From an uncultured SAR86 cluster bacterium (GTDB lineage: Bacteria; Pseudomonadota; Gammaproteobacteria; Magnimaribacterales; D2472): 64,000 nt of DNA. This document shows, in pieces, positions 16,598 to 22,071 of the stretch (its first letter is position 1; every line of letters begins with the position of its first letter). Location: NCBI GenBank assembly GCA_902594005.1, contig CACJKN010000001.1, forward strand, positions 47,083 to 111,082, in the 5' to 3' direction. Position numbers and translations under genes: made by a program. The notes beneath the pieces were generated by a model. The model was not told the DNA's origin and ran no database searches. It saw only the letters and a program-made list of their open reading frames with translations.

Positions 16598-17446
16598 TTA
16601 AAATGAGCCGCCTCTTAATTTAGTATTTGGCGGCCCAAATATCAGCGATAAAGCTTCTTTCGCCGTTTTTGCTTTTCTAATATCTTTAAAGATTGCGCTC
16701 CACCCCATAAAGGTAATCTTTACAGGATTAAATGTATTAACATTATTAACTAATCCATATTTGACCGGTGCTTTCTCAGGCTCAAATGTTCCGAACATCT
16801 TGTCCCAAATAATAAAAAGATTCCCATAATTTTTATCAATATACTCTTTATTAGCTCCATGATGGACTCTGTGATGAGAGGGTGTATTAAAAATAATTTC
16901 TAGTGGTCCAAGCTTGTCAACTATTTGGGTGTGTCCAACTACGCCCCAAAGTGTGCTTATAACTCCTGCAATAACAAGAATGGTTGGATCCATTCCTAGT
17001 AAAGGGAGTACTGCAAAAAAGGGAAGCTTTGACAGTGGCGCAAACCATGCCTGTCGGAGAGATACTGCAAAGTTCATTTCCTCACTGGAGTGGTGACTCA
17101 TATGGATAGCCCACAGAAATCTTACTCTGTGTGAAAGCCTGTGATAAATATAAAAAACTAAATCTATCAACACAAAAGCTAACACCCACATAAGCCATAG
17201 AGGTATGAGATTAGCTAAATCTATAAATCTAAACTGGTAAAGGAAAATGTGAACTGCAAAAGATAGACCTTTTGCGGCTGATCCTATCAATATATTTCCA
17301 ATAAGTAAGCCGGCAGTACATAAAGTATCATCAAGCCTATAAAAGGACTTATTTGTAAGGGATGAAAACATTGCTTCCAAAGCAATCATTCCATAGATAA
17401 TAGGAAGACCAATTGCGTAAACTTCTGCAACCGTTAGATTTGTCAT
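16598..17446 (-). CDS. Sterol desaturase / fatty acid hydroxylase family protein
   Basis: HRLSHR, HMSHHSSEEMN, HRVHHG histidine boxes. Confidence 0.92.
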   Translation of the reverse strand: MTNLTVAEVYAIGLPIIYGMIALEAMFSSLTNKSFYRLDDTLCTAGLLIGNILIGSAAKGLSFAVHIFLYQFRFIDLANLIPLWLMWVLAFVLIDLVFYIYHRLSHRVRFLWAIHMSHHSSEEMNFAVSLRQAWFAPLSKLPFFAVLPLLGMDPTILVIAGVISTLWGVVGHTQIVDKLGPLEIIFNTPSHHRVHHGANKEYIDKNYGNLFIIWDKMFGTFEPEKAPVKYGLVNNVNTFNPVKITFMGWSAIFKDIRKAKTAKEALSLIFGPPNTKLRGGSF

Positions 17447-18071: not shown

Positions 18072-20411
18072 CTAGAAGCTATATCTTAACCTCGTCATAA
18101 CTTGTCTTGGCGGAATAAGCTCGAGCCCCGTTGCAGCAACACCAAATACGTCTGTCATACTTGAATTCACGCCGCTTTCATCAGTTACATTAAGAACCAT
18201 GAAGTCTACAGCTAGGCTGTCGCTAAAACCAATACTCGTTGTTAGATTGCCGATTGTATAAGCTTTTATGTCATCAACAATTGGGTTATTAGAGACGCGT
18301 TGCTGGAACTCTCCTCTTCTAACATATTGAGCTGTTGTGGTTAATGAATTTCCAGAAGGTAAATTAGTTTCATGTTTAATTAAAATGTCTGCGGTGAATT
18401 CAGGCGTTTTAGCTAACTGATTTCCTCTGACATTCTCTCTTAGTCCATATCTTAAATCTTCTTGGCCAAAGAAATATTGATATGCATCTACGTTATCAAG
18501 AACCTCATAGTCAGAAGTCACTTCCGACTCCAAGAATGCTAAGTTCATATCTATACTTAGGGAGTCTGTTACAAATCCAGTAAATTCTATCTCTAAACCA
18601 GACATTTCAGATTCCGGTATATTCGCTACGCCTCCTCTATATGGATCTGGATCAGTAGCTTGAAACTGTAGATTTTCATAAGTATAAGAAAACGCCGCTA
18701 AATTCGCTCTAGCTTTTCCATCTGCAAAAGTAGATTTGAGTCCAAGCTCAACTGACTCTACTGTTTCACTTTCAAAAGTTGGAAATACTAGCGCAGGAGC
18801 AATGGGTCTGCCTGCAATTGCATCTTCTTCTTCAGTGAATCCGAATGTTAAGTTACTTCCACCAGGTTTGAAGCCTCTTGCTAGGGCAACATAAAGCATT
18901 GTGTCCTCAGACAGATCAAACTCTCCTACAACTCTTGATGTAACCTCATCAGTCGTTCCTTCCTCTTGAAAGCTTTCAACGTTTAAAAAGTTTGTTACAT
19001 CGGTTGTAAAGGTGTCTTCTGAATATCGAAGTCCTGAAACGATTCTGAATGTATCACTAACATAAAGTGTGGTTTGTCCATAAATAGAAAATGATTCTCT
19101 TCCTGGGTTAGCATCTGTGAAGAAGTCAACTTCTGCAGCTGGTCCAAAAATATCAAATCTTCCTGGAATGCCATAGTCATGGTCATAACAATAGCTTGGG
19201 TCAGCAAAAGATTCATCACATAAATATTTTATTCTTCCATCCAAGTCATCATCTCTATAGCCTCTAATGACGTTCTCAATTTCATGGTCCATATAAAACA
19301 TTCCTACGGTCCAATCCAATCTATCTTCAATAGGCTGATTAGAGATTAAATTTATTTCTAAGGTTGTTGTATCAACAAGTGAAGTTTCTGGTGTAAATTC
19401 AGCTCTTTGGTAGGTTGCGCCTGCTCCAAGGCCAGGTATAGATAAAACTGGATCTAAATAGTTATGTCTATCATTATCTCTAACAACCAACACATCATCT
19501 TCTTGCACACTGGCAATTGCTTTTAAATTAGCAAAACCTAAATCAGATTCATATATAGCTGCTAGAACCCATGATGATAGTTCATGCTGGGAAATCGTAT
19601 CTTGAGAAAGTTTTCTCATTCCTGAAGTCTGATCATCGATACCTCTTATAGCAGCACCATTTCTATCAACTTTAAAGTATTGTCCAAACACTCTGAGGCT
19701 TGATGTGTCATTTAAATTGAACATCCAGTCAGTTCTGAAACTTTTACTATTATCATCATCAAGATCTTGGCCTGTATAAATATTCTTTGTGAACCCGTCA
19801 CGAGTTGATGAAGATAGAGAGAATCTAGTTGCGATCTTGTCATTCACAACAAAATTGTTTGAAGCACTAACTTTACGGAGATTATAGTCACCAAAAGTTA
19901 CATTCATTCTTCCTGAGCCGCCATCCATAGAAGGTGCTTTACTTATAACATTTACAGCACCACCAGTTGAGTTTTGACCAAACAATGTCCCCTGAGGCCC
20001 TCTTAAAACCTCAATTCTTTCGACATCTAAAAAGTCTGTGCCAAGTGCAAAAGGTGAAGCTATAAAAACTCCATCCATATGAAATGCTACAGAAGGTGCA
20101 GCAATTGCATTCTGATTGGTTTCGTTACCGACTCCTCTAATTGAGATGATAGTCTTGTAGCCTTCATTTTTTGCTACAGTCACGCCTGGAACAATTGCAC
20201 TCAAGTCTACAAAACTTGTAATGTTCTTTTCTTCAATGTCAGATTCTGTCAATGCAGTAACGGCTTGAGAAATATCTTGGAGGTTTTCAGAACGCTTTTC
20301 AGCTGTAACTACAACTTCCTCAATTTCCTGAGCTACTAAAGATAGGCCAAAAGAGCCAACAAATGAAGCTAGAACAATTTTTTTAAATAAAATATTTACA
20401 TAATTTTTCAT
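18072..20411 (-). CDS. TonB-dependent receptor
   Basis: EEVVVTAEKRSENLQDI TonB-box/plug region, RGPQGTLFGQNSTGGAVN, C-terminal ..MTRLRYSF; start set at MKNYVN with upstream GGGGA (ORF open to 20444). Confidence 0.95.
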   Translation of the reverse strand: MKNYVNILFKKIVLASFVGSFGLSLVAQEIEEVVVTAEKRSENLQDISQAVTALTESDIEEKNITSFVDLSAIVPGVTVAKNEGYKTIISIRGVGNETNQNAIAAPSVAFHMDGVFIASPFALGTDFLDVERIEVLRGPQGTLFGQNSTGGAVNVISKAPSMDGGSGRMNVTFGDYNLRKVSASNNFVVNDKIATRFSLSSSTRDGFTKNIYTGQDLDDDNSKSFRTDWMFNLNDTSSLRVFGQYFKVDRNGAAIRGIDDQTSGMRKLSQDTISQHELSSWVLAAIYESDLGFANLKAIASVQEDDVLVVRDNDRHNYLDPVLSIPGLGAGATYQRAEFTPETSLVDTTTLEINLISNQPIEDRLDWTVGMFYMDHEIENVIRGYRDDDLDGRIKYLCDESFADPSYCYDHDYGIPGRFDIFGPAAEVDFFTDANPGRESFSIYGQTTLYVSDTFRIVSGLRYSEDTFTTDVTNFLNVESFQEEGTTDEVTSRVVGEFDLSEDTMLYVALARGFKPGGSNLTFGFTEEEDAIAGRPIAPALVFPTFESETVESVELGLKSTFADGKARANLAAFSYTYENLQFQATDPDPYRGGVANIPESEMSGLEIEFTGFVTDSLSIDMNLAFLESEVTSDYEVLDNVDAYQYFFGQEDLRYGLRENVRGNQLAKTPEFTADILIKHETNLPSGNSLTTTAQYVRRGEFQQRVSNNPIVDDIKAYTIGNLTTSIGFSDSLAVDFMVLNVTDESGVNSSMTDVFGVAATGLELIPPRQVMTRLRYSF

Positions 20412-20486
20412 AAAATTTCCCCGTAAAGTTTTTTTATTTTGCAATTTGTCTGCAGGACAATTGAAGCTAAACTCGACCAGTTTAAC

Positions 20487-20540
20487 GGTGGCGTTCCTTC
20501 GGTTTTCACCTACTTCCGTCTCCTAAGAGATGAACGATTA
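20487..20540 (-). ncRNA. Glutamine (glnA-type) riboswitch aptamer, copy 2 (TonB-receptor-proximal)
   Basis: Minus-strand RNA: UAAUCGUUCA-UCUC-UUAG-GAGA-CGGAAGUA-GGU-GAAA-ACC-GAAGGAACGC-CACC; P1 CGUUC/GAACG, P2 UCUC/GAGA, P3 GGU/ACC, conserved CGGAAGUA and GAAGGAACGC segments. Confidence 0.85.
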
Positions 20541-20590
20541 GCGCGTTCCTTCAGCTTTCGCTTACTTCCGACTCCGAAGAGTTGAACGAT
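20541..20590 (-). ncRNA. Glutamine (glnA-type) riboswitch aptamer, copy 1 (promoter-proximal)
   Basis: Minus-strand RNA: AUCGUUCA-ACUC-UUCG-GAGU-CGGAAGUA-AGC-GAAA-GCU-GAAGGAACGCGC; same P1/P2/P3 with compensatory differences against copy 2. Confidence 0.87.
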
Positions 20591-20781
20591 TTTAACTCAC
20601 TTACACTCAATCACTTGAGCTCCTTTTTAACCATGGAGATGGTGCAAATTAAATCACAATGTAAAATAATACTTTTTAAAAATTAAGTTAACAAGATAGA
20701 AATCAATATTTGAAGGCATTTTTTGTTTTTTTTTGCATTAAAAACTAAATTAATGTCTTTAAAGCTGTAAAATTTATCAAA

Positions 20782-22071
20782 ATGCTAGAAAAAATATTCA
20801 AACTTGAATCAAATAACACCTCAATCGGTAAAGAGATCTTAGCTGGAGTTACCACATTTGTAACAATGGCATACATCATCTTTGTAAATCCGCAGATGAT
20901 GGCTGTTAGTGGTATGGATTTAGGTGCTAGTTTTGTAGGGACATGTCTTGCAGCATCTCTAGCCTGCATAATTATGGGTGTATATTCTAATTGGCCGGTA
21001 AGCTTGGCGCCCGGCATGGGTCTAAATGCTTTTTTTACTTATACCGTTGTAGGTGAAATGGGATATTCTTGGGAAGTCGCTCTTGGTGCTGTTTTCTTGG
21101 CAGGGGTTTTGTTTTTTATAATGAGTATTACCAGATTAAGAAGATGGATGCTTGATAGTATTCCTCTAAATCTTCGCATTGCTATGGGTGCTGGTGTAGG
21201 GCTATTTATTGGCTTTATTGGTTTGAAAAACGGTGGATTGATTGTTTCTAATAATGCCACCTTCCTTAGTCTAGGAGACTTCACCAATATAGAAACATTA
21301 TTGGCTGCCTTGGGTTTTCTTACAATTTGTTCTTTATCGGTCAGAAATATCCCAGGAGCTATTCTGATTGGTGTAATCCTGGTTACAGTATGCTCTATAT
21401 TCCTTGATTTAATTGAGTTTGGTGGCTTAGTCTCTATGCCTCCCAGTGTTGCTCCAACTCTGATGAAAATGGATATCTTGGGTGCTTTAGATATTGCGAT
21501 GCTTAGTGTGGTTATGTCTTTCCTTTTTGTTAATTTATTTGATACTGCGGGGACGCTGCTAGGTGTTGCTACAAGAGCAAAAATAACCGATGAATATGGT
21601 AATGCAAAGAACTTTGATAAAGCTCTAAAAGCTGATAGCAGTTCTAGTATCTTTGGAACCTTTTTTGGGTGCTCTCCAGTAACAAGCTATGTTGAGAGTT
21701 CTGCTGGAGTTGAGGCTGGAGGTAGAACAGGATTAACAACTGTTGTTGTTGGGCTTTTATTTTTAGTTGCTATTTTCTTTTCACCATTAGCTGCAATTGT
21801 TCCAGCATATGCAACCGCTGGAGCCTTAATTTATGTTTCTATCCTAATGATGAGCGGTATGGAAAAACTTAATTGGTCTGATTCAACAGAGCTTTTACCA
21901 GCTCTGGTAATTATCGTAATGATTCCTCTCACCTTTTCAATTGCAAATGGGATTGCCCTCGGATTCTTGGCATATGTTGTGCTAAAGGTCTCTAATGGTG
22001 AAGTTAAAAATATTTCCTCTGGAGCTTGGTTCTTAACTGCTGTTTTTGTTTCAAAGTTTCTTTTTTTATAA
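20782..22071 (+). CDS. NCS2-family purine (guanine/hypoxanthine) permease, AzgA-like
   Basis: LEKIFKLESNNTSIGKEILAGVTTFVTMAYIIFVNP; APGMGLNAFFTY; FDTAGTLLGV; TSYVESSAGVEAGGRTGLT. Confidence 0.95.
   Translation: MLEKIFKLESNNTSIGKEILAGVTTFVTMAYIIFVNPQMMAVSGMDLGASFVGTCLAASLACIIMGVYSNWPVSLAPGMGLNAFFTYTVVGEMGYSWEVALGAVFLAGVLFFIMSITRLRRWMLDSIPLNLRIAMGAGVGLFIGFIGLKNGGLIVSNNATFLSLGDFTNIETLLAALGFLTICSLSVRNIPGAILIGVILVTVCSIFLDLIEFGGLVSMPPSVAPTLMKMDILGALDIAMLSVVMSFLFVNLFDTAGTLLGVATRAKITDEYGNAKNFDKALKADSSSSIFGTFFGCSPVTSYVESSAGVEAGGRTGLTTVVVGLLFLVAIFFSPLAAIVPAYATAGALIYVSILMMSGMEKLNWSDSTELLPALVIIVMIPLTFSIANGIALGFLAYVVLKVSNGEVKNISSGAWFLTAVFVSKFLFL

Follow-up and report, generated by a model that had tools for sequence, protein, structure and literature searches.

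A TonB-dependent receptor operon of a SAR86 cluster bacterium is preceded by two tandem RF01739 elements, that is, type-1 glutamine aptamers, for which binding of L-glutamine by the RNA itself is inferred. We consider it likely that these aptamers form a translational OFF riboswitch setting a purine-uptake receptor operon, and that this switch took over from NtrBC/sigma-54 control in the same genus and in two other SAR86 genera; the ligand response, the OFF direction, the masking of the Shine-Dalgarno (SD) sequence, and the exact substrate are inferred. SAR86 are abundant uncultured bacteria of the surface ocean. In what follows, the window is the whole 64-kb stretch of DNA that was analyzed, g1 is its genus (10 genomes), and g22 is a genus of another SAR86 family.

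Two tandem glutamine aptamers lie in the leader of a TonB-dependent receptor gene

The original prediction had described two repeats with a common P1 helix (CGUUC/GAACG), P2 and P3 helices that are specific to each copy yet paired, and the invariant segments CGGAAGUA and GAAGGAACGC, and it had read them as tandem type-1 glutamine aptamers. When the window was searched with cmscan against all 4227 Rfam families, two matches to RF01739 were the only ones at gathering level, both well above the cutoff of 35 bits (Table 1). Both span model positions 1 to 53 of 53 without truncation, and their alignments reproduce every one of these features, with the P1/P2/P3 junction and the conserved joining segments CGGAAGUA and GAAGGAACG in place. 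The Glutamine-II model (RF01704, Downstream-peptide) reached 16.5 bits at the aptamer site, which is under its cutoff of 33.

The pair occupies 20488-20590 of the minus strand, 76 nt upstream of the ATG at 20411 and on the same strand as the receptor gene. It thus lies in the 5' untranslated region of a nitrogen-related unit (purine-salvage operon and nitrogen regulon), on its coding strand. This ATG is the favored start, a TTG at 20444 where the open reading frame begins being less likely; GGGGA at a spacing of 6 to 7 nt from the ATG was found in 8/8 receptor orthologs. As had been anticipated, the downstream gene, which heads an operon, encodes a TonB receptor (Plug and beta-barrel domains), and the supposed gammaproteobacterial host proved to belong to the SAR86 cluster, from whose genomes the nearest named relatives of the receptor come. 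Upstream, a sigma-70-like promoter would, judging by its position, set the transcript start near 20659, ahead of both aptamers. Its hexamers and 17-nt spacing are identical in 8/8 orthologs, and the site by itself is no better than chance.

A survey of other genomes, which had been suggested together with the original prediction, recovered the tandem pair before the receptor in seven other g1 genomes, hence in eight with the window. That the aptamers are a chance look-alike or a dead relic deserves hardly any weight, given E values of about 1e-12 obtained twice, compensating paired changes between the two copies, and their retention in these eight genomes while the flanks diverge. The response of the leader RNA to glutamine nevertheless stays inferred, because there are no binding or expression data.

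Table 1. Features of the receptor locus and its leader (positions in the window)
Feature	Position	Strand	Remarks
Sigma-70-like promoter TTGTTA-17-TATTAT	20666..20694	-	Putative; one site found, 1.5 expected by chance
P0 closing helix, 5' strand UUGUGAUUUAAUUUGCA	20643..20659	-	Pairs with 20439-20454
5' H-type pseudoknot: S1 ACCAU/AUGGU, crossing S2 CUCC/GGAG, A-rich loop	20620..20643	-	Pairing conservation
Hairpin CUCAA-GUGA-UUGAG	20606..20619	-	CCCAU/AUGGG or CCCUU/AAGGG in relatives
Glutamine aptamer 1 (RF01739)	20540-20590	-	66.2 bits, E 1.8e-12
Glutamine aptamer 2 (RF01739)	20488-20538	-	65.5 bits, E 2.9e-12
Platform hairpin GUUAAACU-GGUCG-AGUUUAGC	20466..20486	-	Folded computationally
Candidate anti-SD segment CUUCAAUUGUCC	20455..20466	-	Complementary to SD
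P0 closing helix, 3' strand UGCAGACAAAUUGCAA	20439..20454	-	Pairs with 20643-20659
SD-like GGGGA	20418..20422	-	6 nt upstream of ATG 20411
TonB-dependent receptor, 779 aa	18072..20411	-	PF07715 + PF00593
Purine-type phosphoribosyltransferase (PRT), 189 aa	17443..18012	-	PF00156
Fatty-acid hydroxylase superfamily protein	16598..17446	-	PF04116; 4-nt overlap with PRT gene
NCS2/AZG-type purine permease, divergent	20782..22071	+	PF00860

Purine salvage is the best-supported role of the operon

The PRT encoded after the receptor has the purine PRT 1vdm as its best solved relative (4e-14), and the divergently encoded permease matches the plant purine permeases AZG1 (5e-65) and AZG2 (4e-48) in the PDB. 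The permease-receptor-PRT core is kept together across the SAR86 orthologs fetched, wherever the contig reaches far enough, and the three proteins show 66 to 77% identity across SAR86. In several relatives (e.g., L104 and L105), guaB (IMP dehydrogenase) and/or guaA (GMP synthase) adjoin this core. The criteria for a purine uptake and salvage module, namely an AZG/NCS2 permease, homology to purine PRTs, and neighbors from the GMP pathway, are thus met, which bears out the earlier idea of a link to the uptake of a nitrogen-rich substrate. Because the core adjoins guaB or guaA in these relatives, purine salvage is the best-supported role of the operon and the permease, the substrate of the receptor itself being inferred.

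The substrate of a TonB receptor cannot be told from sequence alone, and the nearest solved relatives of this one bind colicin, pesticin, and siderophores, with weak similarity that is mostly confined to the plug region. The receptor could therefore import another nitrogen-rich compound (a nucleoside, peptide, or chelate) and the purine genes could be mere neighbors. We regard this as possible but doubtful in view of the conserved togetherness of the permease, receptor, and PRT genes and of guaB and/or guaA alongside them.

Purine salvage could serve different ends. PurL was found in 10/10 genomes of g1, indicating de novo purine synthesis, while xanthine dehydrogenase (PF02738) was found in 0/10. 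Together, these two observations favor salvage over the breakdown of purines for nitrogen, and the idea that purines serve as a general nitrogen source via xanthine dehydrogenase was rejected on the latter ground; glutamine-sparing salvage is the more likely role.

The third gene of the operon, at 16598-17446, was found in this position only in g1 among the SAR86 orthologs compared. It is not obvious what the hydroxylase that it encodes would contribute to purine uptake.

The same type of leader precedes nitrogen-assimilation genes

RF01739 was detected in 10/10 genomes of g1, in 51/108 of its family, and in 96/204 of its order. Among 387 genomes sampled evenly across the class, a single one outside the order has the element, before glutamate synthase-type genes. 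In g1, the leader fronts three unrelated units: the receptor operon (unit A), a glnII-type glutamine synthetase (GS) gene (unit B), and TorF-AmtB (unit C), i.e., a Gcw_chp/TorF-type outer-membrane protein and an ammonium transporter, the latter unit often with three aptamers. In g22 it precedes GSII, GSI, and TorF-AmtB, and in genus g12 the aptamer precedes gltB. Gene names are based on Pfam where it gave coverage and otherwise on inspection of the protein sequence. Since the same leader type fronts glnII and torF-amtB within the genus, and GSII, GSI, and torF-amtB in another family, the receptor is part of a regulon for nitrogen assimilation.

Genera that keep sigma-54 carry the aptamer before circularly permuted ATP-grasp proteins, small peptides (some DUF4278-like), and amino-acid permease clusters. 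At L077, at L079-L088 except L082 (genera g7 and g8), and at L095 (g9), it lies directly 5' of a circularly permuted ATP-grasp type 2 gene, which is followed by a second gene. At most loci of genus g4 (L055-L072), a single aptamer is followed by a gene for a 71-aa DUF4177-like peptide and then by genes for a membrane protein, an APC-type permease, a dimethylargininase-like protein, and a Rieske dioxygenase. This looks like a nitrogen-substrate cluster, with the reservation that all names except DUF4177 were assigned by eye.

Two small peptides with YRG repeats were also observed, one at L065 (+342 from the aptamers; DUF4278, 29.4 bits, over the cutoff) and one at L078 (+94 from the aptamers; 21.8 bits, slightly under it). 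DUF4278 is a partner domain of the glutamine riboswitch in cyanobacteria and forms part of the GS inactivating factor. By virtue of this tie, SAR86 may hold peptides resembling GS inhibitors.

The leader stands where relatives carry a sigma-54 promoter

Among the 18 SAR86 receptor orthologs without a riboswitch, 17 have a sigma-54 promoter upstream (TGGCAY-N5-TTGCW, with TTGCG at one locus), L106 being the exception. By contrast, no such promoter (TGGCA-N6-TTGC) was found in the seven riboswitch-bearing orthologs fetched (L097-L103), nor, by inspection, in the leader of the window. The difference between 17/18 and 0/8 corresponds to a Fisher p of 6e-6, with a background expectation of 0.007 per locus; this p value overstates independence because the receptor orthologs are related. 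Compared at the level of sequence, the aptamer leader occupies the spot where the receptor of the relatives has its sigma-54 promoter, and we infer that NtrBC-sigma-54 governs the same receptor in riboswitch-free SAR86.

The regulatory proteins follow a matching pattern. The sigma-54 DNA-binding domain (PF04552) is present in 126/204 genomes of the order and was found in 0/10 genomes of g1 and in none of g12 (9 genomes) or g22 (21). Full-length NtrC was likewise not detected in genomes of these three genera, several g12 genomes retaining only the first 154 positions. The riboswitch, on the other hand, is present in 10/10, 7/9, and 20/21 genomes of g1, g12, and g22, respectively. Most genomes are incomplete (78 to 93% in g1), which weakens single absences but not the overall pattern, so that the absences carry weight only when taken together. 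The glnII gene occurs throughout SAR86, and in many of the genomes with both genes its distance to ntrC is about 1 kb. An exact sigma-54 promoter lies upstream of glnII in 9/20 relatives tested, and none of the glnII loci checked in g1 or g22 has one. P-II was detected in just 2/10 genomes of g1. Because sigma-54 and NtrC are undetected where the riboswitch fronts receptor, GS, ammonium transporter, or glutamate synthase genes, it is most likely that the riboswitch replaced NtrBC/sigma-54 control in g1 and in the two other genera.

Two possible signs of this control in g1 were discarded. The TTTGCAC region of the window's own leader resembles a sigma-54 promoter, but the spacing is wrong and the genus lacks detectable sigma-54. 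Matches to PF00158 did not represent NtrC-like proteins either: they were partial and mostly located in frames of about 749 aa that read as ClpA-type ATPases, and the NtrC model had no full-length match in the genus.

Other arrangements were seen elsewhere in SAR86. Genera g11, g13, and g14 (family f2) have full-length NtrC, but sigma-54 was either undetected or represented only by short C-terminal fragments (open reading frames of about 80 aa); their sigma-54 is either highly diverged or reduced. At L113/L054 (genome G013), tandem aptamers lie past the 3' end of the purine permease gene and face away from the receptor, which keeps its sigma-54 promoter.

The leader contains conserved elements beyond the aptamers

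The 103 bp of aptamers are the core of a conserved leader of roughly 250 nt, the elements of which are largely common to two SAR86 families and to unrelated genes. Within one genome, the leaders of units A, B, and C are homologous (A-C, 87 to 91% identity; A-B, 79 to 83%), and the g1 and g22 cassettes are mostly 75 to 86% identical. Apart from the aptamers, the extended leader had no Rfam match at gathering level.

A long-range closing helix, P0, joins the 5' leader (...UUUGCA) to the platform (UGCAGA...). In 14 representative leaders, cognate P0 strands gave a mean of -13.8 kcal/mol versus -11.9 kcal/mol for permuted strands (p about 0.0009); the torF leaders of g22 have neither strand. The platform hairpin itself (GUUAAAC/GUUUAAC), 3' of the last aptamer, recurs in the TonB receptor, glnII, torF/amtB, and GSI leaders of two SAR86 families. 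Between the P0 3' strand and the aptamers sits the candidate anti-SD segment (CUUC...), whose complementarity to the cognate SD exceeded that of permuted pairings in 18 leaders (p about 0.007). Neither permutation test was corrected for relatedness. The glnII leaders of g22 have extended, matched anti-SD/SD pairs (CUUCUAUAG/CUAUAGGAG and GCUUCUAAA/UUUUAGGAGC); the pairing in the window's leader is weak (CUUC with GGGG).

The 5' part of the leader harbors a pseudoknot, in which 97% of cells are paired as compared to 24 to 43% in slid controls (18 distinct sequences). Compensatory changes were found in both stems, from C-G to U-A in S2 of glnII leaders and from A-U to C-G in S1 of g22 torF leaders. 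This covariation support is real but thin, because most pairs never vary. The g22 leaders L127 and L136 keep S2 and not S1. In the fetched SAR86 loci, the pseudoknot always lay 5' of glutamine aptamers, and it is missing from most torF leaders of g1 and from one deletion allele. No exact match to it was found in IMG/VR viral contigs. An alternative reading of this region as an upstream open reading frame encoding a leader peptide, ATGGTTAAAAAGGAG (MVKKE...), was dismissed: L127 and L136 have lost the ATGG and kept the CUCC/GGAG pairing, so that RNA structure better explains the conservation.

The deletion allele (L043, genome G006) comes from the nearest relative of the window. About 31 nt are deleted between TTTGCAC and TTGGGTG, which removes the whole 5' pseudoknot, and both aptamers and the platform are nevertheless retained. 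Upstream of torF at L124, L130, and L139, two successive pseudoknot-like elements about 50 nt apart are followed by one glutamine aptamer.

We put forward only tentatively, as a possibility rather than an expectation, that the leader is a composite regulator, in which the pseudoknot would act beside the glutamine aptamers, within a helix-closed structure, as a second domain for sensing or protein binding, and that copying of this cassette between genes rebuilt a nitrogen regulon after the loss of NtrC and sigma-54.

A translational OFF switch is the preferred mechanism

In the mechanism that we favor, intracellular L-glutamine would set translation of the receptor-PRT-hydroxylase operon through the leader. 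With abundant glutamine, both aptamers would close and the platform hairpin that follows the last aptamer would form; this would free the anti-SD segment to mask the ribosome-binding site, and translation would fall. With low glutamine, the 3' strand of P1 and the platform are predicted to pair (AACG with CGUU), the anti-SD segment would be held elsewhere, and the operon would be translated, these pairings having been read from the sequence. The receptor, made when glutamine is scarce, would carry purines (guanine, hypoxanthine or xanthine, or nucleosides thereof) across the outer membrane, the divergent permease would carry them across the inner membrane, and the PRT would trap them as nucleotides. 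Imported purines may in this way save glutamine that is otherwise spent by PurF, PurL, and GuaA.

Computation does not show the direction of the switch. When the aptamers were forced in folding of 34 leaders, SD accessibility never gained more than 0.02 and dropped by at least 0.1 in six, and forbidding P1 had a similar effect. We prefer OFF because GSII, GSI, and AmtB are under this cassette as well, so that an ON switch would amount to positive feedback on nitrogen assimilation, and because the receptor of the relatives is under a sigma-54 promoter. Promoters of this kind typically serve genes that are switched on when nitrogen is limiting. With no modeled leader gaining SD access when its aptamers fold, it seems unlikely to us that glutamine binding instead increases translation of the operon, perhaps so that purine uptake keeps pace with rich conditions, even though P0 forms in several bound-state folds and could leave the SD free with the aptamers folded. 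Such an ON response would have precedent, since the glutamine riboswitches that have been tested are activators, the characterized type-1 and type-2 switches of cyanobacteria among them (PMC6316151). Because the cyanobacterial type-1 switches are ON, the OFF direction is inferred only.

The weak thermodynamics of SD masking in the window's leader would also be compatible with control by transcription termination or RNA decay. Such control is improbable, however, as no intrinsic terminator was found in 20380-20800 and as other leaders show covariation between the anti-SD segment and the SD. We thus retain translational OFF control by SD masking as the preferred reading.

Comparison with known systems

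The aptamer class was already known. New within the literature searched are its occurrence upstream of a TonB receptor gene, the SAR86 nitrogen regulon, the exchange of a sigma-54 promoter for a riboswitch, and the extended leader; a search of titles and abstracts, with subscription papers outside it, returned nothing relevant that joins glutamine riboswitches with TonB, SAR86 with NtrC, or SAR86 with purines and TonB. These loci appear to be a clean natural case of a glutamine RNA sensor replacing a whole protein system (NtrBC and sigma-54), with promoter and riboswitch swapped on the same gene. They also point to purine scavenging as a glutamine-saving route in the nitrogen-poor ocean.

The closest characterized relative is the type-1 riboswitch of Synechocystis gifB (glnA motif, RF01739), with which the SAR86 leader shares the aptamer sequence, the three-way junction, and an association with nitrogen-status genes. 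Unlike the SAR86 leader, the gifB riboswitch is ON and controls a glutamine synthetase inactivating factor (PMC6316151); the SAR86 aptamers are in tandem, precede an uptake operon, are accompanied by extra conserved leader domains, and are expected to act as OFF switches. The same aptamer and tandem arrangement, before the same nitrogen gene classes (GS, PII, GOGAT, and ammonium transporters), have been described for glnA RNAs in environmental, unassigned marine sequence (Weinberg 2010, PMC2864571). A 2018 review considered glutamine riboswitches common in and restricted to cyanobacteria, the GS and ammonium transporter loci coming from uncultured strains (PMC6316151). Such loci are here found in SAR86, which helps to answer where the glnA riboswitches before GS and ammonium transporter genes, formerly known only from unassigned environmental DNA, originate.

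The Glutamine-II riboswitch (Downstream-peptide, RF01704) has the same ligand class, some common motifs, and a pseudoknot (PMC6698751), whereas the pseudoknot of the SAR86 leader is located 5' of the aptamers and is not part of them. NtrBC-sigma-54 nitrogen control is similar in its targets, being inferred to act on the same receptor in riboswitch-free SAR86 and having promoters before glnII too, and differs in that its sigma-54 DNA-binding domain and full-length NtrC are undetected in g1, g12, and g22. Finally, the cobalamin riboswitches before btuB (PMC9004378) likewise lie upstream of the gene for an outer-membrane receptor. The SAR86 switch would, unlike these, sense a signal of nitrogen status and not the transported substrate, a logic that is thereby added to the regulation of TonB receptors.
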